A stretch of 36,959 nt of DNA from a virus. Shown one piece after another: positions 5,587-31,165 of the stretch. Below the pieces are notes generated by a model. It was not told the DNA's origin, did not search any database, and worked only from the letters and a program-made list of their open reading frames with translations. The DNA lies in the IMG/VR virus record IMGVR_UViG_3300044846_002246, positions 1 to 36,959 of that record. The stretch is one strand, 5' to 3'. The stretch's first letter is position 1; the number at the start of each line of letters is the position of its first letter. Both the position numbers and the translations under genes were made by a program.

Positions 5587-5877
5587 TCATTTAACTTTTT
5601 TCACTTTGCCTCGGCGGCGCTTCCGGGCGCGTCCGGTGGCCGTGGTCTCGGCGTGGCCTGCGCCGGGCGCAAGCCGGGCATAGCGGATCTCAAAGCCATT
5701 CACCGCGAGGCCGCAGATATTATAATCGACCCACTCAACTGCGTCTTCCTCGGTCATCTCGTACAGATCTTGGCAAATCTCGATGAGCCGCCAGTAGTTG
5801 TATACCAGACGGCCGTCCGGCCGGACGGATTGGATCGCCCGCTTGAATTGGGCGTGGGGTTCAAGTTTGATGTTCAT
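5587..5877 (-). CDS. conserved phage protein of unknown function with a basic tail
   Basis: A 96-residue protein. The middle (RLVYNYWRLIEICQDLYEMTEEDAVEWVDYNICG) fits a small family seen in phages and bacteria with the pattern YE-DAVEW-DYNI, function unknown; this is from memory. The last 20 residues are extremely basic (RARKRRRGKVKKVK), an addition that could contact nucleic acid. The start ATG at 5877 overlaps the stop of the methyltransferase gene by 4 nt, so the two are co-translated. Confidence 0.75.
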   Translation of the reverse strand: MNIKLEPHAQFKRAIQSVRPDGRLVYNYWRLIEICQDLYEMTEEDAVEWVDYNICGLAVNGFEIRYARLAPGAGHAETTATGRARKRRRGKVKKVK

Positions 5878-6515
5878 AGGGAATATTTGTCCTCGGCCTC
5901 CAGCGCGAGGCATACCGCAAGGGAGAGTGAGTAAGGCACGACTGCCCGGTGCGCCGCGTCCGAGGCCGTGACGATCGCGCCCTTAGCCGATCCGGCGGCA
6001 GAGGTGTGGCAGGATGCTCCGGCCTTGCAGGGCATATGCAGTACCAACTCCGGGGGGAATCCACCCCACAGGTCGGTCGGCTTCTGGGCGGCCTCGCCGT
6101 ACTGGCAGTAGGTTACAGTCCTGCGTTCAAGGCCGCATACCTCGGGCATCCGGCGCATCTTGCCGACCGGGTTCTCGATGATGAAGTACCTCGGCTGGAG
6201 TTCGTTGATGAGCGCGACTGTCTTCTGAAGGATCTTGATACCTAGGTTGGCCTTGACGCTGATCGCTTTCAGTTGCCCTACCTCATCCGTCTTCCAGTTG
6301 AATGCATACCTCAGACGGCTGAAGCCCTCGCACGGCGGGGACGCGAGTATGATGTCCGGGCGCTGCGGGAGATCCGATGCCTTAACATCTAGGATATCCT
6401 TGCACAGCGTTGGAGTGAAACGCTTGGACTTGTCCAAGGTAAACACATCGTGTCCGCGTTCTTTGAACGCAGCACTCCAGCCGCCTAGGCCGCAGAATAG
6501 ATCAATTACCTTCAA
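5874..6515 (-). CDS. DNA (cytosine-5) methyltransferase, compact phage type
   Basis: A 213-residue protein with the ordered motifs of C5-cytosine methyltransferases, which transfer a methyl group from S-adenosylmethionine to C5 of cytosine in a specific DNA site. Motif I is VIDLFCGLGGWS (3-14, SAM binding), motif IV SPPCEGFS (59-66) with catalytic Cys62, motif VI FIIENP (111-116), motif VIII QYGEAAQKPTDLWG (138-151), and a motif X-like RAVVPYSLSLAV near the end. It is much shorter than bacterial enzymes such as Dcm; the region between VIII and X, where target recognition normally lies, is only about 40 residues. It starts 14 nt inside the 6502-6873 gene. Protection of phage DNA against host restriction is the likely role; the target site cannot be read from sequence. 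Confidence 0.9.
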   Translation of the reverse strand: MKVIDLFCGLGGWSAAFKERGHDVFTLDKSKRFTPTLCKDILDVKASDLPQRPDIILASPPCEGFSRLRYAFNWKTDEVGQLKAISVKANLGIKILQKTVALINELQPRYFIIENPVGKMRRMPEVCGLERRTVTYCQYGEAAQKPTDLWGGFPPELVLHMPCKAGASCHTSAAGSAKGAIVTASDAAHRAVVPYSLSLAVCLALEAEDKYSL

Positions 6516-16054: not shown

Positions 16055-16757
16055 TATTTTTATCTTTGATGTAATCGAAAAATCTCCAAAGCAAGAGGGC
16101 GGCTGCGATTCCTAGGGTGACCCCGATGATCCAAGCGAAGTACTCGGAATTGATGATCACCGGGATAGCCGCAGCCAACGGGGCGCAGGCGATGATAGAC
16201 CCGCCCACCCGCCAGCCAATCAGCGGGATAGCCCCAGCAAGCACCCCAATAAAGAACAGGCCAATGGCTGCCATCGTCCAGAGGTTGCGACTGGCATCCT
16301 TGACCTCCTGCTCCAGTGTCTGAATCTTGGAGCGGGCATCTACCAGTTCATCGGCATTCTTCTTGGACTGCTTGATTGCCGCATTCCATTCGTCCTCTAC
16401 GGACTTCAGCCAAGCCTTAGCCTTGGCGATCTCGGTCTCGTATGCCTTGAGGTCTCCGGCAGCAGCCCTGACTCGGGCCGCCTTGAGGTCTTCATCTTCT
16501 GGCCGGGGAAGGTGAGCAAGCGCCACCTTTCCTTCATTCTCGACCACGACTGGTTTAGTGCGGTTTTCAATCATTACCGTAACGGCCGAGGCGACCTTGG
16601 AGTCCCCCTTGTCAATATTGCTACCTAGCGCCCCTAGGCTCTCAGGGGTCGGGACGGCCACAGGGGGCTGCTTGCTGCTCTCGTCCGACCCGAACCACCC
16701 ATCGAGGGTAGAGCAGCCCGTGGCGGCCAAGGCAATGAGCAGGAACGCAATCCTCAT
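16041..16757 (-). CDS. lipoprotein with C-terminal membrane helices, unimolecular spanin candidate
   Basis: A 238-residue protein. Residues 1-15 are a lipoprotein signal (MRIAFLLIALAATGC; lipobox AATGC with Cys15 as the acylated residue). A periplasmic region follows with a coiled coil at about 90-155 (KAYETEIAKAKAWLKSVEDEWNAAIKQSKK...IQTLEQEVKDA), then about three hydrophobic spans (TMAAIGLFFIGVLAGAIPLIGW, IIACAPLAAAIPVII, WIIGVTLGIAAALLLW) and a charged tail. A lipid anchor at one end and a membrane anchor at the other is the layout of unimolecular spanins, which fuse inner and outer membranes at lysis. Known u-spanins have one C-terminal span, so the extra spans are unusual. It precedes two holin-like genes. 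Confidence 0.68.
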   Translation of the reverse strand: MRIAFLLIALAATGCSTLDGWFGSDESSKQPPVAVPTPESLGALGSNIDKGDSKVASAVTVMIENRTKPVVVENEGKVALAHLPRPEDEDLKAARVRAAAGDLKAYETEIAKAKAWLKSVEDEWNAAIKQSKKNADELVDARSKIQTLEQEVKDASRNLWTMAAIGLFFIGVLAGAIPLIGWRVGGSIIACAPLAAAIPVIINSEYFAWIIGVTLGIAAALLLWRFFDYIKDKNNEQP

Positions 16758-19700
16758 CGGTCGGTCTTGGGACTCATCGGCAGATACCGCTCAACGCCGG
16801 GGATACGCATAGTCTGCTGCTCCTGTAGGCTGACATTGCTCGGACGGCGGCGAGCCGTGGCAGGCTCAGAACCCAGACCTTCGACAATGCTGGTGGCAGC
16901 CTCGCCGATACCGATAGCGTCCAGATTCTTACGGACACCGACTCCAAGCGTAGACTGGAAGCGGCGTTCAAGGTTTTCGATGGCCTCGACCGCATCCTGA
17001 GCATCGTTGGTAGTCTTGATCATCGCGCCGTTAGCCCCGTACACCTTGTAGGTCACGATGTCACGGCCAGCCGCCTTGTCGGCGTTCTTGTACTCACGGA
17101 GCAACCTAGCCCCGGAATTCTCGGCCACCCACATACGGCTGTTGATGAGGTTGATACCCTGCTGGGCTTGCATCGGGCCTTGGAACGCCTGCGTGGCGAT
17201 GGCCTTGCCCTTGCCGATTTCAGCGCCGTGCAGGTAGTTGAAGAACGCCTGCTGGAACGCCTGCGTCTGAGCCTCAAAGCCAGACCAGTTCTTAAGGTAG
17301 ACGATGTTGCTTCGGGTCGTCACGGAAGGCGTGTTGACAGTATCCGTGATCACAGGCTTGCGCTCGATGGCGATAGGCAGGCGGTCAATGTCAACCAGCA
17401 GCAGGCCGGGGGCGATGAGCGGCTGGTTACCAGACAGGGCTAGGTCGAGCAGTTTAGCAGTCTGGTCGCGCTTAACCGTCGCCTTAGCACGCTGAGTCTC
17501 GACACCCTTCTCGAAAGCGATACGGGCGGCATCAGCCCGAGCCTGCGCTTGGTCGGCCAGACGCTGAGCCTGAGCGGCAGCCCGTGCATCACGCTGGGCT
17601 TCCTGCTGAGCGCGGCGGCGTGACTCGGCAGCAAAGCGTTCTTCGCTGGCGACAATGTCGGCGTAACGGCGATTCTGCTCGGCGATGAAGATACGCTGCT
17701 GTCGGTCAAGGGCGGTGGCTGTATCCTTAACTTGCTGCTGACGCTGCTTGAGCAAAGCCTCGAAACGCTGGCGCAGGCGGGTCTGCTCCTCGACAACCTT
17801 CATCGGAACACGGGTGATCTTGCCCGTGGCATCAACCCGCAACTCCCGTGTCCGGGCAATCTCATCGGGGGTCATCTCGGGGACATCCGGCAGAGGGCGA
17901 GTAGTAGGCTCTGGCTCAAACCCAAGTTCCAATTGCTGTTGATTCACAGGCTTCACTTCAGCAGCACCAGCCACGGGCGCTTCAGCCGCAGCCGCAGGCT
18001 TGGCCTCCCAGAGTTCAGGAGCATTCTTCTCAAGACGCTTTAAAGCCCGCTCGGCTGTATCCTTCATTTCCTCCAAGGGCTTGCTCGCCTTGGTGAATTC
18101 ATCACCCTCAAGGCTGGCAGCATCAAACAACTGCTCGTCCAACTTGGCGATGAACGCCTCAAGGTACTCCTTGTTGTTAGCGAACTGGTCGGGGGCGAAT
18201 TGCTTGTTGAACTCAAAGATTCGTCCAGCGACACGCTGGTCTGCGTTGTCACGACCAAGCCTGAATGTATCATTGATAGACCTAAGGCTATTATCAAGGG
18301 TGGGGACGACATAGGCTTCCTTCTGCGCCCACGACTGGTCACGAACAAGGTCACGCGCTTCCTCAAGGTGCTTGGTGATCGCCCGGTACTTGTCCCCGGA
18401 AGACTTCCAAGAATGACGGTTCTTTGAAACCTCGATGGCAGACTCAAGGATGGCCTGAGCGTCCTTACTACCCCCGGAGAACTCGGCGCTGAAGTTCAAC
18501 TCATTCAGGAACTCCCGCATAGACGGAGGCATCTTGCCACCCTTGGCAACAGCAAACACCCCATCGACAGCACCCATAAATTCGTTCTGGGAACGGACAG
18601 GATCGTAGATGCGGGAAGCAGCGCCAGCCTTAGGCTTCTCGGCCTGCGTGGCAGCCAAAGCCTCGTTATTGTTGTCACGCCAATCACGCAATGCATCATC
18701 AACCCAAGCAGCATCCTCACGGGCAGCGACCTTATCACGAATAGCCGCAACGGCACGGCGCTCATCAGCCGAGTTTAGAATGACAATACGACCATCACCA
18801 ACAGTATAGGCGAGGTTCTTCGTCTGCTTGCCGTCAACACCCTTCTCGTAACCGATGAACAACTTGACCTCGGGAAGGCTAGGATGAACCCTAACCTCGG
18901 ACACGGAGAGTTCCGGGCCGTTAAGGAATCGACTTTCGCCAGCCTCCGCAACAGTCTTGATGGTCATCGTAGACGCACCGTTGATGGTCGGGATCTTCTG
19001 AGACCCCCACCCCTTGACGGACATAGCAAACTGACCAGACGAAACTCCAATCTGGTCGATGTACATAGACTGACCATTTTCCTTCAGCGGCCCGAACTGA
19101 TCTAGACGGAAGTCGCTGATGGGGAAGTTAGTACCACGAATTGCAAAACCTGTGGCCGTGTTGGTCTGGCGGTTATCCTCCACCCAACCAAGTCGCTTCT
19201 TGCCGGACTCAAGTCCCATAATAGCACGGAGTGCATCACGCATAGCAGCGCCACGCGCTGGGTTAACAGGGTCTAGAACCTCCGCAGATACAGGGTTGAC
19301 CTCACGGGGAGAGCCATTCGGGTGAAGCGGGACAGGGGCTGTAGGATCAAGCGGGCCGTGCTTATAGTAGTGGCGCATCCACAGCGTGGCCTTGTTCATA
19401 AACTCGGCATCGCTGCCGAATAGGCTACGGATATAATTTCCAGTATACGGGTTTCCAACCGGATCTTTCAGGTAAACCTTAGCACCATTATCATCCAGCG
19501 TGAACAAGCCCTGCGTGAAGGCATTGTTCGTGGAGGCGGTAAAAGCCTTTGTATCGAAGGCACGGAGTCTGACAACACGCTGGGTTGCATCGACCATCTT
19601 GCCGTCTGGGCCTTTGACTTTTACCTTCTTGCCGTTGGCATCGTAGATAGGCGCTTCGCCCATCGTGAAGGCCAACGGAACGATACTACGGTTCTCGACC

Positions 19701-22700
19701 TTGCCGGAGATATCCTTGCCGACACGAAGACGATGCTCGGTAAGGAAGTCCGTATTGACCGAGAACACATTGCTATACTCAGCAGCAAGCACGGACTTGG
19801 ATTCCCCGGAAGCCAGCGTACGAAGGATTGTCAGGAAGTTCTGCTTGTAGGTCTCAGGGATGCTGGTGTCAGCCGTGATGGCGGCGATCTCCTGACCAGA
19901 CGGGATACCCGTGCGGATAGGATTACCGTTGGGGTCGATGTACACTTGCATCCCACGCTGGTCTTCAGGGACGGAGTTGAGCGCGTCTTCCATCGCCCGG
20001 GTGAACTTGTCACCAAGACGGCCGACCTCCTCAGGGGTGCGGATATTCTTTCCGTCATCGGTCAGAACCCAATCAAGGCCGTTGCGCTTGATGAAATCGA
20101 TGCGGTTCTCTACAGGAACCATCGGGTCATACAGGTTGATAGGACGAACCCGATTGGAACCCTTGCCGCCAGTAGCAGCGATGACCTTGTCGTAGAACGC
20201 ATCCAGAACAGGGGAGCGAATAATCTCGTTCTTTTCGTTCAGGAAGTAACCACGGAGAGTGCCGTCCCCGGACTCGATGAACCGCATCCCGGCAGCCTCC
20301 AACTGGGCGGTAATGCCTTGAGCGTGCTTGCGCGAGAACACCCCGTAGGTGGGGTCGAACAGGTTCTTGAGCAGACTACTGGCATTGTCGCTGATAGTGC
20401 GGTCACCAAGCAGCGTCTTCTTAAGCACATCAAAGTTGATGGCAGAAGCCTCGCTGCCACGGGGAGTGGCAAGACCCGGACGATAGCCTGTCCGGCGAGT
20501 GTTCAAGTCCATCGAGGCCAAAATCCAAGTCATAGCCTCACGGGTCGGGTCAACGAGACCATCCTTATCCTTGAACCCGGAATCACGGTAACGGCTCAGA
20601 CCGTTCTTGTAATCCATCATAAACCGGGCGCGCTGCTCAGGGGAAAGGTCGGCAGCATAAGCCTTGAGGATCTCATCAGTAACCTTCCAACTGACAGCAT
20701 CGGGGGTATAGCCGCCACCCCACATCATATCTACCATCTCCGGCATCAGTTTCTCAACAGCAGAATCGGACAGCAGAGCGTGCCAGCCTTCGGAGATAGC
20801 GCCGATGTTATCGATGGTGTCGATATTGATATAGGTTGTCTTGCCCTGAGGGCCGTCAACAATGTAGAACCCGTTAGCCGCGCTGCGAACCGTAGAGCCG
20901 TCAGGCATAACACGGGTCTCATACGGCCGCATCGGAGACTTCACCTGAGACTCACCCCTAGCCGCAGCCAGATCGCCATCAATGACTGTCTGCTGCTCGA
21001 TGGCAACCTTCATCGAAGTATCAATCTCAGACCTACGCTGACGAAGTTTGTCCAAGGCGATACGGTTGGCATCGACCTTCTTCGGGTCAGTCCACTCAAT
21101 CTTCTCGGCTTCGACCAGCGCCTCGGCGGTCGCAATCTCGTTATCGATTGCCTTTAGTTCACGGGCGAACCCATCCATCTTAACCTTGTTGGTCTCGGAA
21201 TCCCCAGCGAGGGCTGTGGCTCGGTCGGCAGCGGCACGGGACTTGTCTAATTGAGCCTTGCGCTGAAGTGCGTATTCCTTGGCCTTGACAGGGTCGCCCG
21301 GATGGAGACCAGAAGCCTCCTCCATAATCATTTTGGCTTCGGCCGAAGTAGACTGTGTAAGGATTGTTGCAGCCTCAAACTCAGTGCCTTTAACAAACCG
21401 AACATTTCCTCGGTGAGCCATATGTAGGTCACGCACGATATTCGCGCGCTGAATGTAAGCGGCCGAGTCGTCCCCGGCACGGCCAAGGTACTCAACGATT
21501 GTAGCACGCTGAGCCGAATCCTTCATATCAGACAAGATTGTGGCTACATCGCCCAAAACCATTTTGGCGTGGACAGGGTCTGCACCCTTTGGAGTCATCG
21601 AGTACAGACGGTTAATAGTGCGAAGCGTACCAGAAAAACCGATACCCATACCGACACCAGCACCAACGGCATCCTCATCGGCCATACCAGCCAAAAGACC
21701 GCCAGTGATGCCTGCGATAACACCATCCTCCCAGACGACCTTTGAGCCGGAGCGCAAAATACGCTCGACTCCCAAGCCCTGCATACGGCGAAGAGAGGTG
21801 GCATCTTCAGCAAGGTTAGTGGCCTTTAGCATAGCCGCAGCCTGTTCCTTTGTGAGAGGAACACCGGGTGTCATAGGAATGCCGCTTACGATCTTACGGG
21901 CCTCTTCCTCCAAATCGATGGCCGTACGCAGGAAGGTGGATTCACCGTACTGCTTGCCGAGGGAAATATTCTTGGCGACAGCGGACTGGATTCGACCCAT
22001 CTGCTGAACACTAGCGCCGATGGCACGAAGCGTATCAGGACGAAGAACCTGAGAGAAGGTGACATACCCAGCACCAGTCAGAGCAGCACCGACAATATCG
22101 CCCTGAACCAAATACGCTCCAGCAGCGAGACCACCAATGGTCTTCCCGGCGACACTAGTGTTAGGAAGCAATGCTTTAAAGACCTTCGATGTAGCACGGC
22201 GAATAGCGCCAGCCTTTAGATTGGACTCGGACTGCTCATCAAGGAATTCAGCAACCCAGTTAATGCTTTTTCCTGTTGCGGATGTCGTAGCACCAGCAGC
22301 AGTTCCTACAGCGCCAAACTTAGGGCGGGATCGCAGTTTATCAATGCCAGCGGCATCATCAGGAAGGGCATCCAACTGCTTCTGGAGTTCGGAAACACGG
22401 GTAGACAGGGACTTGTTCTTGGAGATGGTAGAGCCAATCTCTTTGCGGATCACCTGAGCGGAGGGTGTCTGGCCGATACGGCTCTTGCGGTCGCCAAGGG
22501 CGAGGCCGATGACATCGTCATCTGTAAAATTGGCCCCCGGTACGAGCGTCTCCAGTTCGGCACGCATCTTTCCGACAGCATTACTGAACACATCGCTTGT
22601 CACATTGGCGGTAGCCCGCAGGCGGGAAGCCTCGGCAGCAACCTCGCCAAGGCCGGAACGGACGGCGGTCATCGTCTGGGCGGCCTGAGCAGCCTTAGCG

Positions 22701-24259
22701 CCTACACCAGCCAACTTGAGAGCGCCCATAAACACCAGCACAGGGTCGGCCATAGCCGCAGCATCGATGAGCCGCTTCTCCTGATTTGTTCTTTCGGCGT
22801 ACTTCGCCAAGTCAGTAGCACCTACCTGACGATACATCCAGCCAGTCACCGACTCGCCAGTACCACGCTGTTCATTATAGTTCGCTTCCCACTGGTCGAT
22901 ATAGGTGTCAAGGTGGGCAGGCGACATATCCTTGTACATATCGCTACTGCGAATCCAAGCATCAACGCCAGCCCCGAACAGACTACCCATATTCTTCATC
23001 TGATACTCGGTATGGAAGAACAGGGAACCGGGGTCAGTGGACTCAGAAACAAGCCCAACCAAAGACGGGATGGCTTTCAGAACACCCTCACCAAAGTTAG
23101 CCAAACGCTCATAGGACATTTGGGGACGGAAAGCGCCTTGCTGCTTAAGTTCGGCAAGACGCTTAAATGCGCTGAGTTCGTCAGGGTCTGCGTACTTACC
23201 AAAGCGGCGCTGAAGAATGGCGGCAAACTTACCTTGATCGTCATTAGCCTCGATGAGTTCAGGGCCATACTTACTGGCAAGTTCGTGTGCGCGCATCAAG
23301 ACGCTGTTGGCTTCATCACGCTCCTCACGGCTCTTGGACATCCATCGGTCGGATAGCACTGTCCGGCCATTCTCCATCAGGACTGCACCCTCGGAGCCAA
23401 TTGCTACAAGAGTGCCGATAGAGCCTTCTAAAAAGCCGCCAGCAGCATAACCACCCTCGGCGATAACCGTAGACAAACCCTCGACAACACCAGCACCAAA
23501 ACTAACACCGTGCTTATCCTTCCAGCGAGCCATAGCCTTGAAAGCATCACGGCGAGCCTCAGGTGTCTTTCCGAACAGATACTGCTCGGGGTTATTGAAC
23601 ACCATCTCGCCCCACTTGCTGTTCACATCAAGATTATCCACCATAGGCTTAAGTAGGCCCATCGTGTATGTCTTGGTGGTCTTGCGGGCGAAACTTTCAG
23701 CCTCCTCGCCCATCATCTTGCGGATGATGGATTGGTCTACGCCTGCGGCAGCGGCGATCTCAAGGATCTCCTTTGTCTGAAGGTCGGCTGGATAGAAGGT
23801 TGTTCCGGCAGCCTCGGCCTCGGCCATCTTGGCCTCGATGATAGGACGGATCTTCCCGAACACATACTTGGCATCGTGGTTGGCCTGCGGGCGCAGCGTA
23901 TTGACCGTAAACCAAGCAGCCTCCTCGGTTGACCTCTTACCCTCAGGGAGGTTCGCCTTGATGTTGTTGTAGAAGTCGGCGATTGGCCCTCGGGAGATAT
24001 CATCAGTAACAGAAAAATCCCCTCCCAACGGTGTCTGCGGAAGTGGAGTATCCGCTTTCTCAAACATCTGGAACAGGCTTCGATTGACAGACCGGAACTG
24101 GGGGTTCTTCCGCAGTTCGTACTCGTCAGTCCCCGGCTGCCACTGAGGGTCAGAAAACATCGTTCCCGCGCTCTGCCCATCAGGCAATGTGTAAAGGAAC
24201 GGTTCAAGAGGGTACGAACCCTCGCTGACCTGAGCCTTAAGGGGATTGGTTTCTGCCAT
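16754..24259 (-). CDS. giant internal virion (DNA ejection) protein, 2501 residues
   Basis: A 2501-residue protein, the largest in the window and the last gene of the virion operon. By position it corresponds to the largest ejection protein of podoviruses (T7 gp16 has 1318 residues), but I recognise no sequence match. It has several Gly/Ala-rich hydrophobic stretches that could insert into a membrane: about residues 250-300 (AGVVEGLSTVIAEGGYAAGG...), 706-743 (GGLAAGAYLVQGDIVGAALTGAG) and 843-883 (AGITGGLLAGMADEDAVGAGVG). A long Arg/Gln/Ala coiled coil spans about 2150-2270. No lysozyme-type Glu motif, RNA polymerase motif or protease motif could be identified by eye. It overlaps the spanin-like gene by 4 nt. 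The likely role is forming a trans-envelope conduit with the 24260-26392 and 27197-28033 products. Confidence 0.78.
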   Translation of the reverse strand: MAETNPLKAQVSEGSYPLEPFLYTLPDGQSAGTMFSDPQWQPGTDEYELRKNPQFRSVNRSLFQMFEKADTPLPQTPLGGDFSVTDDISRGPIADFYNNIKANLPEGKRSTEEAAWFTVNTLRPQANHDAKYVFGKIRPIIEAKMAEAEAAGTTFYPADLQTKEILEIAAAAGVDQSIIRKMMGEEAESFARKTTKTYTMGLLKPMVDNLDVNSKWGEMVFNNPEQYLFGKTPEARRDAFKAMARWKDKHGVSFGAGVVEGLSTVIAEGGYAAGGFLEGSIGTLVAIGSEGAVLMENGRTVLSDRWMSKSREERDEANSVLMRAHELASKYGPELIEANDDQGKFAAILQRRFGKYADPDELSAFKRLAELKQQGAFRPQMSYERLANFGEGVLKAIPSLVGLVSESTDPGSLFFHTEYQMKNMGSLFGAGVDAWIRSSDMYKDMSPAHLDTYIDQWEANYNEQRGTGESVTGWMYRQVGATDLAKYAERTNQEKRLIDAAAMADPVLVFMGALKLAGVGAKAAQAAQTMTAVRSGLGEVAAEASRLRATANVTSDVFSNAVGKMRAELETLVPGANFTDDDVIGLALGDRKSRIGQTPSAQVIRKEIGSTISKNKSLSTRVSELQKQLDALPDDAAGIDKLRSRPKFGAVGTAAGATTSATGKSINWVAEFLDEQSESNLKAGAIRRATSKVFKALLPNTSVAGKTIGGLAAGAYLVQGDIVGAALTGAGYVTFSQVLRPDTLRAIGASVQQMGRIQSAVAKNISLGKQYGESTFLRTAIDLEEEARKIVSGIPMTPGVPLTKEQAAAMLKATNLAEDATSLRRMQGLGVERILRSGSKVVWEDGVIAGITGGLLAGMADEDAVGAGVGMGIGFSGTLRTINRLYSMTPKGADPVHAKMVLGDVATILSDMKDSAQRATIVEYLGRAGDDSAAYIQRANIVRDLHMAHRGNVRFVKGTEFEAATILTQSTSAEAKMIMEEASGLHPGDPVKAKEYALQRKAQLDKSRAAADRATALAGDSETNKVKMDGFARELKAIDNEIATAEALVEAEKIEWTDPKKVDANRIALDKLRQRRSEIDTSMKVAIEQQTVIDGDLAAARGESQVKSPMRPYETRVMPDGSTVRSAANGFYIVDGPQGKTTYINIDTIDNIGAISEGWHALLSDSAVEKLMPEMVDMMWGGGYTPDAVSWKVTDEILKAYAADLSPEQRARFMMDYKNGLSRYRDSGFKDKDGLVDPTREAMTWILASMDLNTRRTGYRPGLATPRGSEASAINFDVLKKTLLGDRTISDNASSLLKNLFDPTYGVFSRKHAQGITAQLEAAGMRFIESGDGTLRGYFLNEKNEIIRSPVLDAFYDKVIAATGGKGSNRVRPINLYDPMVPVENRIDFIKRNGLDWVLTDDGKNIRTPEEVGRLGDKFTRAMEDALNSVPEDQRGMQVYIDPNGNPIRTGIPSGQEIAAITADTSIPETYKQNFLTILRTLASGESKSVLAAEYSNVFSVNTDFLTEHRLRVGKDISGKVENRSIVPLAFTMGEAPIYDANGKKVKVKGPDGKMVDATQRVVRLRAFDTKAFTASTNNAFTQGLFTLDDNGAKVYLKDPVGNPYTGNYIRSLFGSDAEFMNKATLWMRHYYKHGPLDPTAPVPLHPNGSPREVNPVSAEVLDPVNPARGAAMRDALRAIMGLESGKKRLGWVEDNRQTNTATGFAIRGTNFPISDFRLDQFGPLKENGQSMYIDQIGVSSGQFAMSVKGWGSQKIPTINGASTMTIKTVAEAGESRFLNGPELSVSEVRVHPSLPEVKLFIGYEKGVDGKQTKNLAYTVGDGRIVILNSADERRAVAAIRDKVAAREDAAWVDDALRDWRDNNNEALAATQAEKPKAGAASRIYDPVRSQNEFMGAVDGVFAVAKGGKMPPSMREFLNELNFSAEFSGGSKDAQAILESAIEVSKNRHSWKSSGDKYRAITKHLEEARDLVRDQSWAQKEAYVVPTLDNSLRSINDTFRLGRDNADQRVAGRIFEFNKQFAPDQFANNKEYLEAFIAKLDEQLFDAASLEGDEFTKASKPLEEMKDTAERALKRLEKNAPELWEAKPAAAAEAPVAGAAEVKPVNQQQLELGFEPEPTTRPLPDVPEMTPDEIARTRELRVDATGKITRVPMKVVEEQTRLRQRFEALLKQRQQQVKDTATALDRQQRIFIAEQNRRYADIVASEERFAAESRRRAQQEAQRDARAAAQAQRLADQAQARADAARIAFEKGVETQRAKATVKRDQTAKLLDLALSGNQPLIAPGLLLVDIDRLPIAIERKPVITDTVNTPSVTTRSNIVYLKNWSGFEAQTQAFQQAFFNYLHGAEIGKGKAIATQAFQGPMQAQQGINLINSRMWVAENSGARLLREYKNADKAAGRDIVTYKVYGANGAMIKTTNDAQDAVEAIENLERRFQSTLGVGVRKNLDAIGIGEAATSIVEGLGSEPATARRRPSNVSLQEQQTMRIPGVERYLPMSPKTDR

Positions 24260-26392
24260 TTATTTTTTGGGCTGGAATTTTGCGGGGTTGGAGCCTTCAA
24301 GTCCCTTCGCCTGTCCAGCCTTGCTTAGGGCGTTCCAAAGAGTTGTGCGGGCTTCAAGCAAGGCTGCCTTCTCCTCAGGGGTTGTCAACGCCCGACCACC
24401 CGGCCTAATGCCATATCGGTTATAGAACTTCTCGGAGTCGGCAACCGTAGCCTCAAGGGCTGCGGCCTGAGTTTCCGCACCAATGGAGCGAAGGTCAACA
24501 GCCTGTTTCTTGATCTGCTCAGGGTTGTAAACCATCCCCTGACCCTCAAGACCCTTGCGGTACATATTGTCAATAAAGACGGCCAAGGCGCGGGTGTTAG
24601 CCTCAAGGTCTGATGCGTCCAAATCGGGGGCAGCAGTATTCAGGTAGGTAATAGCCTTCTTGACAAACTCTCGGTCAGCGTCAGAGAAGTTACCGCCGGA
24701 AACAATGGCTCGCCGGAATGTGGCAACGCCGAATGTACTAGCCAGTTCGCCCTCAAAGTAGTTCTGCATATCAGATGCCAGAAGACGGAAACGCTGCGTG
24801 TAGTCATTGTTACCAGCGACACGGGACTTAAGCGTATCATCAAGGCGAATCAGGAAGTCAGTACCCTTCAGCCAGCCATCGTAGGTTTCGGCGACAGTAT
24901 TCTGCTGCGCGGTAGAAAGCGGAGCAATGCCGAATCGAGCCGGGTTGACCTTGTTGCCAGCCTTATCCTTGAGGTCGTAACCGATATGAACCCACGGCCC
25001 CTTGATAGGATATTCGGAAACAGCAGTACGCACGGCCTCCTCACCCTTTGCTGCCTCCTCACGGCCAGCGCGGTTAGCAGCCTCCTTAGCCAATTTGTCG
25101 GACGCTTCATTGCGTTTGTCCTGAATAGCCTGTCGAGCGGCAGTAGCGGCGCTCTCAGCGGCAGTGCGCTGAGCCGTAGCGGCAGACTGATAGTTGGCGA
25201 ATTCACGATTAATCGTAGACTCACGATCATCCAACTTCTTCATATCACGCTGCTCAGCCTCATCAATGCCCTTGAGCAGGTTCTGATTATAGGAGTTGGC
25301 GGCACTTGCTAGGTCGATGCCAACCTTGTTAGCCGGAAGCCTTTGAGCCTGCTTGCTTCTTGCAATAAGGACATTAGTCCTATCACGATCAGTGGAATAT
25401 TTCGTGCGAGTCGCATCGCGCTCAGCCTGAATGGTTTGCAACTGACCGCTGACACGGGCGGCTTCCTTCGGGACATCGTAGGTAGCCGGAGCAGCCGGAG
25501 CAGCAGCAGGGGCAGGGGCAGCAGCCCTAGCAGGAGCAGCCGCAGCAGTGGCAGCAGGCTTGGGGGCTGTCGGAGCGGCAGGGGCGGTAGCCTTGGCCGC
25601 AGGAGCCGCAGGCATAGCAGCCGGGGCAGCGGCAGCCGGAGTTGCGGTAACCGGAGCGGTATCTGCCACGCCAGCAGGCTTGTTGTCCACACTAGGAACA
25701 GCAGTGGCAGGCTCAGCAGTGGCAGCGGATGTAGTAGGCTTATCAAGCCCGGTAGGCTGATTGTAGACACCAAGCGACTCACCCGTAGGAGCGACTTCAG
25801 CAACATTAGGAACGGCAACACCAAAGCCCATCCCTGCGATGGCAGAACCATAAGTACCAGCATTGGCCTTTCGCTCAGCAGCCTTTGATTTCAGTTCGTC
25901 AATCTGCGCCCGCTTAAGATCCAGTTCGATAGCAGCAGTAGCCTTGGCAGCCTGCTCAGAAGCATACTTCTGTTCGCCCTGATACATAGAGGCGAACCTA
26001 TTAAGAGATTCGCCGCTCAACTTGGAGCCGTCACCGCCAGTGCTATTGTAGAAAGCGAGGTTCTTGTTAACCTCGTCCATATTGACCTTACCAGCCATAT
26101 TAGCCGAAAGCACGACAGTGCCGTCATCAGCCTTGACGAACTTTCCTTCTGATAGCCAATTATTGACAGCCTTAGTGCGTTCGTCATTCTTGATGTACGG
26201 AGCAAGGGCGGCCTTGGTGGTAATCTCTTGTTCTTGTTCTTTTTTATATTGATTAATTCCACCAGCAATAGCCTGAGAAGCAGTGGAAATGCCCTGACCG
26301 ATGGATGCGGCGGCGCGACCAAAACCCTCAACAAAACCGGGGGCAATCTGTTGAACCTGTTCAGACTGATATTTAGCGAATGGAGAGGCCAT
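24260..26392 (-). CDS. internal virion protein with Ala/Pro linker
   Basis: A 710-residue, predominantly helical protein directly upstream of the giant gene (TAAATG junction). The N-terminus (FGRAAASIGQGISTASQAIAGGINQYKKEQEQE) is a helix of the kind seen in phage ejection proteins. Residues about 197-305 are an Ala/Pro-rich low-complexity linker built from PAAAPAAP-like units. The remainder is long charged helices (for example EQRDMKKLDDRESTINREFANYQSAATAQRTAAESAATAARQ). Its position matches T7 gp15. No enzymatic motif is visible. The end of its coding sequence supplies the AATTCCAGCCCAAAAAA leader of the next gene. Confidence 0.72.
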   Translation of the reverse strand: MASPFAKYQSEQVQQIAPGFVEGFGRAAASIGQGISTASQAIAGGINQYKKEQEQEITTKAALAPYIKNDERTKAVNNWLSEGKFVKADDGTVVLSANMAGKVNMDEVNKNLAFYNSTGGDGSKLSGESLNRFASMYQGEQKYASEQAAKATAAIELDLKRAQIDELKSKAAERKANAGTYGSAIAGMGFGVAVPNVAEVAPTGESLGVYNQPTGLDKPTTSAATAEPATAVPSVDNKPAGVADTAPVTATPAAAAPAAMPAAPAAKATAPAAPTAPKPAATAAAAPARAAAPAPAAAPAAPATYDVPKEAARVSGQLQTIQAERDATRTKYSTDRDRTNVLIARSKQAQRLPANKVGIDLASAANSYNQNLLKGIDEAEQRDMKKLDDRESTINREFANYQSAATAQRTAAESAATAARQAIQDKRNEASDKLAKEAANRAGREEAAKGEEAVRTAVSEYPIKGPWVHIGYDLKDKAGNKVNPARFGIAPLSTAQQNTVAETYDGWLKGTDFLIRLDDTLKSRVAGNNDYTQRFRLLASDMQNYFEGELASTFGVATFRRAIVSGGNFSDADREFVKKAITYLNTAAPDLDASDLEANTRALAVFIDNMYRKGLEGQGMVYNPEQIKKQAVDLRSIGAETQAAALEATVADSEKFYNRYGIRPGGRALTTPEEKAALLEARTTLWNALSKAGQAKGLEGSNPAKFQPKK

Positions 26393-26396
26393 AAAA

Positions 26397-27197
26397 TTAG
26401 TCTTTCATATAAGAAAGTGGTGTTTGGTCTGCCCAAGGATATCTTGCTGATGCGTTCTCAACAGCACCCTTGAACTTAGGACAATAAACAACCTTAGCAG
26501 CAGTTGGCCTCTTGTCGAGACACGCTGTGCAAGCGTGGACATAATCTACATTGAAAGACCTGTCAGACTTTTCACGATACTTTCCGTCCACTTTCTCGTA
26601 TCGGTCTTTGTCCCAAGGTACATCGTTTTTCTCGATATAGTTCCAGATATCATCGTGCGACCAATCTCGCAGCGGGAACATAAAGTTCACCCAGCCCTCA
26701 CCAAATCGGCTGTTAATCCTAGTGCCAGCATCGCCACCCAAAATTGGGTCGCTGTCGCATCCTTTGTGTCCAATCCAGATCATATCCCAATTAGCCTGAA
26801 TGTTCAACTGCTTCGGGCGGTTAAGGATATCAATAGCGCACGCCCAAGGCTTACCTTCTACCGGGGGAGTAATCCCAGTAGGACAGGTCATAGTGGAGGT
26901 GTTCAATCCGTAAACATTTTGAACCTCAAACTCATCTCCTGTCTGCTGGAAAGCAGAACTCATAGGATGCCAAGAGTACACCTCAAGGGCATAGTCGGCA
27001 ATTACCTTGTTCTGGAATGAGTACTTAACTGGTTGCCAAGGCTCTTTGAAGAACACCACAGGCAACTTGATCCCAAGCGTATGCAAGATATGGAAAAGAA
27101 CCATAGAGTCCTTACCACCCGACCAAGCCAAGGCAGAGCGATTAGGGACAGCAAACCCAGCGCGGATTAGTTCTATGGTTTTATCCAGTTTGCTCAT
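26397..27197 (-). CDS. PP-loop ATPase of the PAPS reductase/sulfotransferase-like family
   Basis: A 266-residue protein with the ATP-pyrophosphatase P-loop SGGKDS at residues 26-31 (ALAWSGGKDSMVLFHIL), as in PAPS reductases and the sulfur-transfer enzyme DndC. Further landmarks are FFKEPWQP, FPLRDWSHDDIWNYIEKNDVPW (typical of the family's C-terminal part) and CTACLDKR plus VVYCPKF near the end, which may form a redox or metal site. Such enzymes activate a substrate by adenylation, often for sulfur chemistry. It lies between two internal virion protein genes with TAATG-type junctions, so it is expressed late with the particle. Substrate unknown; assimilatory PAPS reduction, nucleic-acid thiolation and another nucleotide reaction are all possible. 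Confidence 0.85.
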   Translation of the reverse strand: MSKLDKTIELIRAGFAVPNRSALAWSGGKDSMVLFHILHTLGIKLPVVFFKEPWQPVKYSFQNKVIADYALEVYSWHPMSSAFQQTGDEFEVQNVYGLNTSTMTCPTGITPPVEGKPWACAIDILNRPKQLNIQANWDMIWIGHKGCDSDPILGGDAGTRINSRFGEGWVNFMFPLRDWSHDDIWNYIEKNDVPWDKDRYEKVDGKYREKSDRSFNVDYVHACTACLDKRPTAAKVVYCPKFKGAVENASARYPWADQTPLSYMKD

Positions 27198-28033
27198 TAG
27201 ATCATTGCCGCCCCAATAGTTGCCGCCCCACCGATAACAGCGCCACCAATCGCACCAGAACGCTGGGCATTTGCAGACTGAACGGCCGTTTCCATCTGAA
27301 TGCGGTTGGCACGGATGTTAGCCAGATACTGGGACTCAGGTGTAAGGAAGGAGGACTGGCCGAGAGCGCCGTATGTAGACTGGGCGGCATTAACCATCCC
27401 AGTAAGGCCGAACTGCTGTCCAGCACCAAAGGCAGGGGTAAGGTAGCCCTGATAGCCCATCTGCTGCTGACCAGCACCCATCTGGTAGGCCGCCTGAGCG
27501 GTGGCCTGACGCTGCTGCTGGCGCTGCTGACCCAGACCATAGGTGTTCAAGATCTCAAGGTCACTACCCTGACGGCTGAACTGTAGACCACGCGCCTGAG
27601 CAGCCGCCCGGGCCGCCTGCTGGGCTTGATTGGTTTCCTGCGATGTAAGACCAGTCCCGGCCTGAAGACCCTCAAGCGCCTGCTGGCCGAAGGTGTTATA
27701 GATACCCCGGGTGTTCGCATCGAGGGATCCAATGGCAGCCTGAGTAGCCTGAGCGCCAAGGCCACCCATCATATTCAACTGGCTGGTGGCGTACTGCTGC
27801 TGGAACTGGTCAGCCCTAGGCTGCAAGTCTCCATAGAGGCCAAGAAGCCCAGTAGCCTGACCTCGCATCGAGGACATCTGCTGGGCAGTAAGCATAGGCT
27901 GCAAACGAGCCTCCGCATCTGTTTGTCTAATCAGGAGTTGTTCCTGCGCCCGAAGGGCATTAGACCCCTCAGTCAGATACTGTTGATAGTCCGCTTCCGG
28001 GTTGGGAGCGGGAGTTTTTTCTTTTCCACCCAT
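27197..28033 (-). CDS. internal virion protein, Gln/Ala-rich (T7 gp14-like position)
   Basis: A 278-residue protein very rich in Gln, Ala and Gly (QQQRQATAQAAYQMGAGQQQMGYQGY), mostly helical, ending in a Gly/Ala-rich hydrophobic segment (SGAIGGAVIGGAATIGAAMI) that could insert into a membrane. These features and its position beside the 710- and 2501-residue proteins match T7 gp14-type ejection proteins, which are released into the host envelope before DNA. No direct sequence match is claimed. Confidence 0.72.
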   Translation of the reverse strand: MGGKEKTPAPNPEADYQQYLTEGSNALRAQEQLLIRQTDAEARLQPMLTAQQMSSMRGQATGLLGLYGDLQPRADQFQQQYATSQLNMMGGLGAQATQAAIGSLDANTRGIYNTFGQQALEGLQAGTGLTSQETNQAQQAARAAAQARGLQFSRQGSDLEILNTYGLGQQRQQQRQATAQAAYQMGAGQQQMGYQGYLTPAFGAGQQFGLTGMVNAAQSTYGALGQSSFLTPESQYLANIRANRIQMETAVQSANAQRSGAIGGAVIGGAATIGAAMI

Positions 28034-28452
28034 TAGATTTGTTCGGTTAGGTTGATATATTTGTTAGAGATTTCGACCACCTTGTCGAATTGAACCGCCC
28101 ACTTCTTCTGGTTTTCCCAGTTAGGGTAACGCTGCTTAAACTTCCAGACAAGGCCAATCCGGCCTTTGGCGTTTAAAGCGCACCAGTCCATAATGCAAAG
28201 TTCTTGGTTAGGCTCGTCTTTGAGCGTAACTCCATAGACTGGGTTAAGGGCATTCTCGTCCCCTACATACGGGTTGGCGATAGGGTACGCTACGCCCACT
28301 CCGGCGATCCGACCCTCGTCATAAGAGACGAATAGGTAGTCGTGAAGGAACGCCCAACGAAGGTAGTTCTTCGTGTTATTAATGCCAAACGCCTCCCTGC
28401 GACCCTTGTAGCGGTTCGCATCAACGAAGGAGGTTAGTTCGGAAAGGAGCAT
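28033..28452 (-). CDS. GNAT-fold-like protein in the virion operon
   Basis: A 139-residue protein whose layout (N-terminal helix, then YLFVSYDEGRIAGVGVAYPI, then ELCIMDWCALNAKGRIGLVWKFKQRYPNWENQKKWAVQF) resembles the GNAT acetyltransferase fold. The usual acetyl-CoA loop (Q/RxxGxG/A) is degenerate here (NAKGRIG), so activity is doubtful. T7 gp13, a small protein required for assembling the internal core, is also GNAT-like and sits next to the ejection genes; a similar assembly role is an attractive inference. It overlaps both neighbours by 1 nt. Confidence 0.6.
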   Translation of the reverse strand: MLLSELTSFVDANRYKGRREAFGINNTKNYLRWAFLHDYLFVSYDEGRIAGVGVAYPIANPYVGDENALNPVYGVTLKDEPNQELCIMDWCALNAKGRIGLVWKFKQRYPNWENQKKWAVQFDKVVEISNKYINLTEQI

Positions 28453-29549
28453 CAGGCGGTCTTGTATTTGTAGATGCGGAACTTTGTTGCAGGCATAGCA
28501 ACAAATACAGAAGGCTGACCAACACCCAAGGTATAACCACTAAGGGGGTAAGCCATTTCAAATGTATAAGTTGATGTAAATGAAGTCCCAGTATTTTCAA
28601 TAGCATTTAGATACAACGGAGCCATTCTTGACGCCGCCCCCGTGCTGGTGTGGTCTACATCATTACCTCCAATCAAATCTAAGGAACCAGAAGTTCTTTT
28701 AAGTTTATAACTAACATAACCAATAACGTTGTATTGCAAACCTCCAATAATTTCTACACACCAGATTTCGTTTGATGGTTTGGTGTAACTTGAAGAAGTA
28801 AACATCACAACAAAATTACTTGCAACTGAGTTTGCAGTAAATGGTGCAACAGTTTCTTCAACAATTTCAGTAAGCACATAACCGACTGTCCCATTGACCT
28901 GCAAAGCACCTGTAAAATTAGCAGTACCGCTATAAGTTAAAGCACCAGAAATCGTAGTATCCCCAGTAAGAACCGAAGAACCAGCAACGAAAAGGCTTCC
29001 ATTAATAGACTCGCTGCCTGCGTTCCTGATAGCGCCCTTCTTCGTGTACGAAAGCGTACTCGATCCAGCCGTAGCCGCCGTGGTCATCACATAGGTGAAC
29101 GAGTTCGTAGCGACAGTAGCCACCCAGAATGTGCCGTTGTAACCAGTAGCGGCGGCGGTGACTAGGATGACTTGTCCAACGGTCAGGGTGTGAGCCGTAG
29201 AAGTGACCGTGACAGTCAGGCCGTCAGCAGAGGTGTACGCTTGCCCAGTGACGATAGTGCCGTCATTAGGCGTGACAACGATGTCGCTGTTAGCGCCAGC
29301 CGTGATAGCGGAGGTCGTGACAGGCACATTAGACCCAAGCACATCAGAGACATTAGCCTCACGCAAGCCCGTGGCAGACAGGTCGTACAGCAGGATAGAG
29401 TCGCCAGAGGCAACAGTGTTAGCCTCGATATTAGGCTGATCGGTAATAGATCCGGGCAGCAGGATGGCGCTGTTGGTATGCGCGTTAAGATTGGCGGCGG
29501 TGACTTGGTCGCCAGTAGCAAAGGTGTAAGGGGCTTGGAGTTGAGCCAT
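28452..29549 (-). CDS. tail fibre-like protein
   Basis: A 365-residue protein rich in Thr, Ser, Gly and Val. The N-terminus (MAQLQAPYTFATGDQVTAANLNAHTNSAILLPG) is a motif I associate with phage fibre or spike proteins that attach to the tail. The middle has repeated beta elements (GSLFVAGSSVLTGDTTISGALTYSGTANFTGALQVNGT), typical of beta-helical trimeric fibres, and the C-terminal 130 residues form a beta-rich domain that probably binds the host receptor. Local base composition changes at about 28.5-28.95 kb (more AT-rich), consistent with exchange of the receptor-binding end. Confidence 0.72.
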   Translation of the reverse strand: MAQLQAPYTFATGDQVTAANLNAHTNSAILLPGSITDQPNIEANTVASGDSILLYDLSATGLREANVSDVLGSNVPVTTSAITAGANSDIVVTPNDGTIVTGQAYTSADGLTVTVTSTAHTLTVGQVILVTAAATGYNGTFWVATVATNSFTYVMTTAATAGSSTLSYTKKGAIRNAGSESINGSLFVAGSSVLTGDTTISGALTYSGTANFTGALQVNGTVGYVLTEIVEETVAPFTANSVASNFVVMFTSSSYTKPSNEIWCVEIIGGLQYNVIGYVSYKLKRTSGSLDLIGGNDVDHTSTGAASRMAPLYLNAIENTGTSFTSTYTFEMAYPLSGYTLGVGQPSVFVAMPATKFRIYKYKTA

Positions 29550-31165
29550 TATTGTGTGGATTGAGTGTTATGTCCCGGGACGACAGCCTCTACAGTTACC
29601 GACCGAACAGACGGCCTGCGGCTCGTTGTAAGGAACTTAACTTGCGAGTAATACGCTGTTTTACGGGTAGGGATACGAAGAAGATAGTCCTCGTCACCAG
29701 ATGATGTCTTAGTAATGAGGTTTGTAGTGAAGTCCGGGTTTACGGTGATGAACTGCATCGTAAGAGAAGCAGCAGAAGGAATCAGCACATCAGCCTGAAC
29801 GCTAGAAAAACGCTTGTCCCGGTTCGTGTCAAACGAGTAACCACGGGTAACAAGTTCACCTTGGATCTCATTGGGCAGGAATGTGCCACCAGCAGAGATT
29901 GGAATGGAGGGGAGGATGAACGGCAAGATGGGAAGACCAGCAGTGGCTCCGTATTCATCGTAGTCCAACTCCTCCATCATAAACACACCTTGCTCGGTAT
30001 CAACGGCAAACAGACGGCGGCGGTTACCCTTCTTAGCCACGGAAAATGCACGGATATCGAATCCGGCAGGGTAGGAATCAACGGATTCCCATCCTTTGTT
30101 CACGAAATTATAGACAAGAACGCTGTTGTTTGTGGTAGAACCATCCAAAGGGACTGCAAGGTAGTAACGATTTTCCCAGTAAATACCGACAGACTTATCC
30201 ACATAGTTATAGTTGATTCGCTCGATGACATCAGCAATAGGCGCTGAAAGCGGCTCGGAGATGGTCAGCAATCGCATTCCCTCAGGGGTGTTCCCCTGAC
30301 CGCCGGAAGCGCCAGCGGGATTCAGGAAATACACCCCGTTATCAGATAGGAAAATAATACCTCCCCCCGCTTGGACTACGGATCCATTGGCAATGCACCC
30401 GATGTCAGTAGCAAGGGATTTAACATAGGAGTCGTTCATATGGACGGGGTCGCCAACCGCCGTCGCCCCGACTCCTACGGAGGCGTAAAAGATACTATTC
30501 CGCATAAACACCACGAATTCATTAAGAGTCCAAGGTGTGATTGCAATTAGGCTATCGTTACCACCATCATTGATACTGAACATATCCAAGGACGACCAAG
30601 CATCATCCTCTAGATAGTGACTGACCTTAATGGTATTACGATCCGTCTGGACGATATGCCGATTGCCATAGTAGATGGCGTGACGGCTATTCGGGTAGTT
30701 GTGATGATTGCCTACGCTCGGCACTACGATGCTGCCAGCGGCATAACTACCATCCCAGCGCAGGGTGCTTTTGCTGAAGCCACGGCAGATGTAGATATAG
30801 CCAGCACCCTGAGCCTGATACATATCCACCTCATCGGAAGATGTAATGGTCTGCCCTGCCGGATATGTCACCTTGCCAGAGAGCGCCTCGGTGTCTGGAT
30901 TATATGTATAAAGGCCGTCAGCGACAGCCATCACCAGCAGTTCACTATTGCTAGTGTCTGTATAGGTGCAGCAGCCGTAGATGGAGACCCCGGCAGCCAC
31001 CGTGGTCAATCTTTCAACCCCCTTGCGGAGGCTTGCAACGCCACGGTCGAAACGGAAGTTTACCGACTTGGAGACGAAATTCTTGGAGACGCTGACAGGG
31101 TTGTCCCGTGAGTTTACACCCACGAACCCTTGGTCACCATCAATTGCGTACTCACGGGTCGGCAT
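29549..31165 (-). CDS. tail nozzle / DNA stabilisation-like protein
   Basis: A 538-residue beta-rich protein. The opening (GDQGFVGVNSRDNPVSVSKNFVSKSVNFRFDRGVASLRKGVERL) and the many blade-like repeats with Trp, Tyr and Asp (for example ITPWTLNEFVVFMRNSIFYAS, YNFVNKGWESVDSYPAGFDIRAFSVAKKGNRRRLFAVD) resemble beta-propeller tail proteins such as T7 gp12 nozzle and P22 gp10-like stabilisation proteins. It would form the distal part of the short tail. Its start ATG overlaps the stop of the 45-residue membrane-peptide gene (TAATG). Confidence 0.75.
   Translation of the reverse strand: MPTREYAIDGDQGFVGVNSRDNPVSVSKNFVSKSVNFRFDRGVASLRKGVERLTTVAAGVSIYGCCTYTDTSNSELLVMAVADGLYTYNPDTEALSGKVTYPAGQTITSSDEVDMYQAQGAGYIYICRGFSKSTLRWDGSYAAGSIVVPSVGNHHNYPNSRHAIYYGNRHIVQTDRNTIKVSHYLEDDAWSSLDMFSINDGGNDSLIAITPWTLNEFVVFMRNSIFYASVGVGATAVGDPVHMNDSYVKSLATDIGCIANGSVVQAGGGIIFLSDNGVYFLNPAGASGGQGNTPEGMRLLTISEPLSAPIADVIERINYNYVDKSVGIYWENRYYLAVPLDGSTTNNSVLVYNFVNKGWESVDSYPAGFDIRAFSVAKKGNRRRLFAVDTEQGVFMMEELDYDEYGATAGLPILPFILPSIPISAGGTFLPNEIQGELVTRGYSFDTNRDKRFSSVQADVLIPSAASLTMQFITVNPDFTTNLITKTSSGDEDYLLRIPTRKTAYYSQVKFLTTSRRPSVRSVTVEAVVPGHNTQSTQ

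Follow-up and report, generated by a model that had tools for sequence, protein, structure and literature searches.

What does an enzyme of the PAPS reductase superfamily do among the virion genes of a phage? The question is raised by a locus in a 36,959-base IMG/VR record, the whole of which was analysed and is referred to here as the window. A first-pass annotation of this DNA had placed a PP-loop enzyme between two ejection proteins, had doubted that it was an ordinary metabolic gene, and had offered sulfur transfer to nucleic acid and late-stage sulfur metabolism among its possible roles. The association with virion proteins has held, since the C-terminus of an ejection-type protein tracks the enzyme; DNA modification and sulfur transfer to nucleic acid are not supported, as we discuss below.

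The PP-loop gene and its setting

The gene is genuine and encodes an intact protein of the PP-loop/PAPS_reduct superfamily. The interval 26397-27197 was correctly delimited at the outset; its minus strand is a single ORF of 266 aa, and its plus strand has in-frame stops. The product, P0001, retains the PP-loop motif (W25-SGGKDS) and has cysteines at C105, C120, C147, C223, C226 and C239, the last three being the C-terminal cysteines remarked on earlier. It reaches the gathering score of PF01507 (PAPS_reduct; 38.9 bits, cut-off 22.5). It misses the curated cut-offs for CysH and APS reductases (TIGR00434, 20.1 against 165.1 bits; TIGR02057, 18.1 against 254.2; NF002537, 31.9 against 154; TIGR02055, 14.9 against 235.3), for CysD (PRK05253, 33.8 against 195; TIGR02039, 25.3 against 396.6) and for DndC (TIGR03183, 24 against 290.4). 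By these cut-offs P0001 is neither CysH, CysD nor DndC. The catalytic C-terminal cysteine of CysH is of the ECGxH type; P0001 has none, its last cysteine being C239 and its end PLSYMKD. The QueC profile PF06508 did not match P0001 at E 0.001, and a PADLOC scan of P0001 alone returned a weak QueC match (21.9 bits).

The AlphaFold2 model of P0001 (pLDDT 89.0) has two nearest folds that are tied, CysD (1zun, Z 14.9) and the PAPS domain of FAD synthase (8rom, Z 14.8). Both are close in fold, yet only 18-22% identical over the aligned part, and P0001 differs from them in an extra Cys-bearing insert (about 76-125) and in its C-terminal part (200-266). The shared fold proves no function. The nearest predicted viral structure is that of an uncultured-phage protein, 54% identical to P0001 and named PAPS reductase; the relatives of P0001, which we call family A, are therefore present in databases under that name.

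Family A is encoded in 173 IMG/VR stretches and was examined in 107 distinct contigs (at least 106 besides the window). All members are metagenomic, and annotated phage records gave no relative at E 1e-5 and only partial matches at E 10. Cellular relatives occur at 11 or more loci. Of the 11 listed, two are on MAG contigs that share their module with IMG/VR phage contigs, and nine are 22-53% identical to family A over partial length. The contigs PAZU01000034.1 and PAZU01000030.1 (L082 and L083), binned as 'Euryarchaeota archaeon SP67', look like phage contigs inside a MAG, because they contain the group-2 phage module described below and the enzyme of L082 shares 97% identity with its counterpart in IMG/VR contig 3300020308_000002. 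Among 87 distinct members of the family, with pairwise identities down to 41%, 42 positions are invariant, SGGKDS, C105 and C239 included. The other conserved cysteines are retained less strictly (C226 in 85, C223 in 79 and C120 in 77 of the 87). C120 and C223 are lost jointly, to T and S, in eight members and C120 and C226 in two more, as if these residues made up one dispensable metal or disulfide site. Because of those eight joint losses of C120 and C223, a four-Cys cluster is no general feature of the family, and the candidate of a universal four-Cys [4Fe-4S] site is weakened.

The features of the locus are collected in Table 1. The proteins that flank the PP-loop gene, P0003 and P0002, have no Pfam or PHROG match, but the genes of the window (Hc3-like, fibre or needle, GNAT position, a protein of about 280 aa, PP-loop, 710 aa, 2501 aa) follow the order seen in cultured Bcep22-like phages, for example Burkholderia phage DC1, where a virion protein is succeeded by GNAT, a virion structural protein, the PAPS-reductase-like protein, a second virion structural protein and a DarB-like giant. 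The flanking proteins in DC1 are annotated as virion structural, among them gp64, the positional equivalent of P0003. The giant protein of the window matched nothing in Pfam or PHROG, and P0004 nothing in Pfam. The placement of the gene between two ejection proteins, and with it in a P22/Bcep22-like ejection module, is thus well supported by gene order; P0003 is a putative virion protein, a designation that rests on its position. The TAATG couplings reported for both junctions are present upstream only: the downstream gene starts at 26392 after a gap of four bases, with no TAATG. Across the window the motif occurs no more often than expected (44 occurrences against 44.3).

The late genes of the window also include a major head protein, and its replication genes encode O-like, DnaC-like, Erf, exonuclease VIII and RusA proteins. 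A DNA methyltransferase of 213 aa (phrog_757) is encoded at 5874-6515 on the minus strand; it is perhaps the methyltransferase named in the first-pass annotation. A GNAT acyltransferase gene was also seen directly upstream of, or near, tailed or Peptidase_S74-bearing ejection proteins at other loci (L333, L336-L339, L420, L422 and L424).

Table 1. Features of the PP-loop locus in the window, with the basis of each assignment.
Feature	Position	Strand	Basis
Giant protein, 2501 aa, gp16/DarB-like position	16754..24259	-	position
P0002, 710 aa, downstream virion/ejection protein position	24260..26392	-	order as DC1 gp66
P0001, PP-loop/PAPS_reduct-superfamily protein, family A, 266 aa	26397..27197	-	Pfam, family relatives, AlphaFold2 model
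TAATG stop/start overlap of P0003 with the PP-loop gene	27195..27199	-	
P0003, upstream Ala/Gln-rich protein, 278 aa, putative ejection protein, proposed partner/substrate	27197..28033	-	position as DC1 gp64
P0003 tail, NAQRSGAIGGAVIGGAATIGAAMI-COOH, codons of the last 24 residues	27200..27271	-	tail pattern
P0004, 139 aa, in the GNAT slot of Bcep22-like phages	28033..28452	-	position
P0005, 365 aa, fibre or needle position	28452..29549	-	position
P0006, 538 aa, head-closure Hc3/P22 gp10-like stabilization protein	29549..31165	-	

The C-terminus of the upstream protein

The setting of the gene recurs in its relatives more than chance would allow, a point that the first-pass annotation had proposed to check. 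The protein encoded immediately upstream of the family A enzyme (position -1) is of one family in 75 of the 107 contigs and of other sequence clusters in the rest. These upstream proteins, from about ten different clusters and many unrelated families, share a hydrophobic tail rich in Gly and Ala that closes with Ile or, rarely, Phe. An upstream gene had been called in 100 of the 107 contigs, and 99 of the 100 proteins end in [LIVMFA][IF]; at L078, the exception, gene calling had selected a wrong ORF, and the DNA before the enzyme reads ...AGALI-stop. The stricter end [GASTV]x[LMF][IF] was found in 90 of 100 proteins at -1, against none of 912 neighbours at other positions, and in the window P0003 alone passes the tail pattern. 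Redundancy was removed by requiring distinct last 30 residues (68 tails) or, for the comparison of relatives below, distinct whole sequences (106). A single lenient test was passed by 67 of 68 distinct upstream ends, against 10 of 706 other ORFs.

The constraint lies on the end of the protein and not on the DNA, because synonymous codons vary freely there (all six Leu and all three Ile codons occur) and because, in most of group 2 (below), 30-42 bases separate the tail gene from the enzyme gene; overlaps are also seen. The same observations reject translational coupling, or a Shine-Dalgarno sequence, as the cause of the conserved end. The body of the upstream protein was less informative: its predicted structure is poor (pLDDT 61.2), and a PHROG search with a 30-member alignment gave weak matches for two of the 30.

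Relatives of the upstream protein with and without the enzyme were compared in two groups. Group 1 was collected with the upstream protein alone as query in two scans (15 and 75 loci). Among its 106 distinct sequences the tail is present in all 66 with the enzyme and in none of the 40 without it, the absence of the enzyme resting in some cases (e.g., L199, L206 and L207), where fewer than 400 bases follow the gene, on the immediate start of the next gene. This set omits re-fetched copies of contigs, ORFs left open at contig ends (L166, L204 and L214) and truncated bodies (L192, L193, L200 and L227-L230). Group 2 was collected with the protein encoded three genes upstream and has 60 contigs, 24 with the enzyme and 36 without. 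The tail is present in 24 of 24 of the former (18 by the automatic test, the tails of L268, L269, L275, L277, L289 and L290 being read directly) and in 0 of 36 of the latter at the equivalent slot; one slot away, two enzyme-less contigs have proteins ending GNPGLFI (L261) and GKSFF (L240). No copy of the enzyme was found elsewhere in 38 enzyme-less records of group 1 (positive control, 12 of 12) or in the 36 of group 2, several of them about 85 kb long.

Bodies more than 95% identical switch end and enzyme jointly. With the enzyme, L015 ends AGAALI; its near-identical twin without it, L158, has the same zipper and ends AGAAMGKA. Similarly, L049, L069 and L046 end GAALI next to the enzyme, and their twins L175, L174 and L178 continue into an extra domain. 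In these exchanges the breakpoints fall close to where the upstream gene ends. A tree built from the bodies, with the tail columns omitted, shows 15 changes of enzyme state, of which well-supported branches force just three; a sign test on these (p = 0.25) has no power.

The extra domain is Peptidase_S74 in the tested proteins that carry it (L175, L172 and L194, by Pfam). Within group 1 this domain is found in 12 of 40 enzyme-less and in none of 66 enzyme-plus homologues; the remaining 28 enzyme-less proteins have neither the domain nor the enzyme. Peptidase_S74 has a fold unrelated to that of the PP-loop enzyme and, unlike the enzyme, acts in cis as a self-processing chaperone; in the sets examined the two are mutually exclusive at the same C-terminus. 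Peptidase_S74 was also seen at the end of putative ejection proteins, beyond its place in fibres and spikes, at L172, L175, L194, L420-L424 and L094.

A second enzyme family, B, repeats the pairing in cultured phages. P0001 has a divergent relative in the PAPS-reductase-like protein of DC1 (profile match probability 97.3, 17% identity). The Bcep22-like phages (Lessievirus DC1, BcepIL02, JC1, BcepMigl and CSP3) share the gene order of the window, and their upstream virion protein has a hydrophobic C-terminus of the same kind. Their gp65/gp67 differ in belonging to a divergent PP-loop family, in which CC and CxxC are invariant in 19 aligned sequences, and in having a partner that ends in Phe. 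That residue ends the upstream protein in all seven named phages (DC1, BcepIL02, JC1, BcepMigl, CSP3, phiA008 and MW202711). A family B query returned 80 IMG/VR loci with 56 distinct upstream ends, which finish in Phe (34), Leu (15), Met (6) or another residue (1). The lenient test was passed by 55 of the 56, against 3 of 301 other ORFs; at the exception, L363, a gene of 221 aa separates the enzyme from a tailed protein ending ...AAVFI. Peptidase_S74 was absent from the five enzyme-plus proteins tested and present in all six enzyme-less relatives tested (Parlo, PEp14, POI1126, Skulduggery, OspP_OH and MW202496), which were drawn from 38 records matching DC1 gp64 and nine matching the MW202711 protein. 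MW202711 and MW202496 come from the same spring, have bodies that are 73% identical, and form a natural swap pair.

Comparison of these loci shows that the enzyme gene and the hydrophobic end are gained and lost together, on unrelated and on near-identical proteins alike; as the two adjoin on the DNA, recombination alone would yield part of this correlation. The ends are, by the same comparison, (Gly/Ala-rich hydrophobic)-Leu-Ile-COOH next to family A and -Phe/Leu/Met-COOH next to family B.

Candidate roles of the enzyme

The enzyme and the upstream protein very probably function as a pair with that C-terminus at its centre, as judged from sequence comparison. We propose, with about even confidence, that they constitute a two-gene system of virion maturation, with a PP-loop enzyme that uses ATP working on the ejection protein's C-terminus. 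That the action is a covalent modification, by adenylation of the terminal carboxylate and transfer to an acceptor, is a chemistry that we infer with slightly less assurance. The PP-loop protein would bind ATP together with the free C-terminus of the ejection-type protein whose synthesis directly precedes its own, would adenylate the terminal carboxylate, and would pass the activated carboxylate to an acceptor, giving amidation, a thiocarboxylate or a conjugate. The hydrophobic tail would thereby be capped or matured before or during assembly and ejection. The fold group of CysD and FAD synthase comprises adenylyl-transfer enzymes, which adenylate anionic oxygens. Carboxylate adenylation and transfer are favoured because of this activity of the fold group and because the last residue is what stays invariant in the partner.

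Precedents exist in which a PP-loop enzyme is matched to the terminal tail of the protein encoded next to it. Cap9 of type IV CBASS and QatC of qatABCD act, or are proposed to act, in this way (PMC11996544; PMC13279940), and P0001 has weak matches, in structure and in sequence, that include a Cap9 chain (9nto_B). Cap9 and QatC belong to the QueC family and concern the N-terminal Gly of a defence protein, whereas the window pairs a PAPS_reduct-type protein with the C-terminal hydrophobic residue of a phage ejection-type protein. A model after QatB, in which the N-terminus of the partner (here an MG start) is modified, was rejected: the MG start is kept where the enzyme is missing, with MGS opening 19 of 40 such proteins. 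As for the partner, a review of ejection proteins portrays T7 gp14 as an outer-membrane pore that is insoluble in water (PMC8954989), a role that would be fitting, by analogy, for a small hydrophobic ejection protein.

The pairing would also be expected if the hydrophobic C-terminus were a loading peptide, by which the PP-loop enzyme enters the capsid along with the ejection protein and is injected to act early on a host or phage target. The position in the ejection module agrees with such docking, and a C-terminal peptide can act as a signal for docking just as it can act as a substrate. The constraint on the last residue (Ile in A; Phe, Leu or Met in B), however, suits a substrate carboxylate at least equally, and replacement by Peptidase_S74 points to maturation of the partner rather than to delivery of cargo. 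We consider docking unlikely, though still a serious competitor.

The replacement by Peptidase_S74 in enzyme-less homologues of group 1 and in the named phages is, for its part, what would be seen if the PP-loop protein were a chaperone in trans, holding the tail during folding or oligomerisation as Peptidase_S74 does, without covalent modification. The PP-loop motif, and the invariance of 42 positions in all over sequences as distant as those of family A, suggest catalysis instead, and the 28 enzyme-less proteins that have neither enzyme nor Peptidase_S74 also speak against a need for such help. This reading is accordingly given a low probability.

It is still less probable that the correlation is an artefact of linkage, with tail and enzyme merely adjacent on an exchanged cassette and the enzyme's function unrelated. 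Adjacency and the breakpoints near the end of the upstream gene would be explained in this way. The tail, however, is kept on about ten upstream clusters, whether the genes overlap or stand 30-42 bases apart, and across enzymes that diverge to 41% identity with free synonymous variation, and a second enzyme family repeats the pairing with a different last residue.

Sulfur modification of DNA or tRNA, DndC- or TtcA-like, was the role that the first-pass annotation had thought worth testing. It would account for the common superfamily, the cysteine motifs and the weak match to the DndC profile (on DndC, see PMC10853773). The score is far below that cut-off, as it is for CysH and CysD, and no other gene tracks the enzyme: in a comparison of five enzyme-plus with six enzyme-minus genomes, nothing but the enzyme gene occurred in at least three of the former and in none of the latter. 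The five enzyme-plus genomes have no second tailed protein; in one of them, G039, the tail ends AAI, outside the strict pattern. The late ejection module and the covariation with a protein C-terminus make such a role very improbable, and DNA phosphorothioation is rejected on the profile cut-offs and on what co-varies. The usual annotation, an auxiliary metabolic gene of sulfate assimilation (CysH), draws on the PF01507 match and on publications that read the PAPS reductase gene of JC1 (PMC9144972) and such viral genes in Cariaco Basin viromes (PMC7785012) as sulfur metabolism; with the CysH and APS reductase cut-offs missed, no cysteine past C239 to serve catalysis and the enzyme coupled to the end of an ejection protein, sulfate assimilation is rejected on the same grounds, and we regard this as the least credible of the readings.

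Implications for viral cysH genes

The pairing of enzyme and tail did not appear in the titles and abstract openings covered by a literature search. We tentatively suggest that these proteins represent a new class of C-terminal protein-modifying enzymes, in which the last residue is read differently by each subfamily, which can be swapped for the self-cleaving Peptidase_S74, and to which a sizeable part of viral 'cysH' may belong as enzymes of virion maturation. Viral PAPS reductase (cysH) genes are usually read as altering host biogeochemistry. If a large group of them serves the C-terminus of an ejection protein, those ecological readings would need revision, and a sizeable share of the 'cysH' sulfur genes of viromes would be virion-maturation enzymes. 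The proposal, if true, would also open up a step in the maturation of podovirus ejection proteins of which we found no description, and would give a prediction at the level of single residues for cultured phages.
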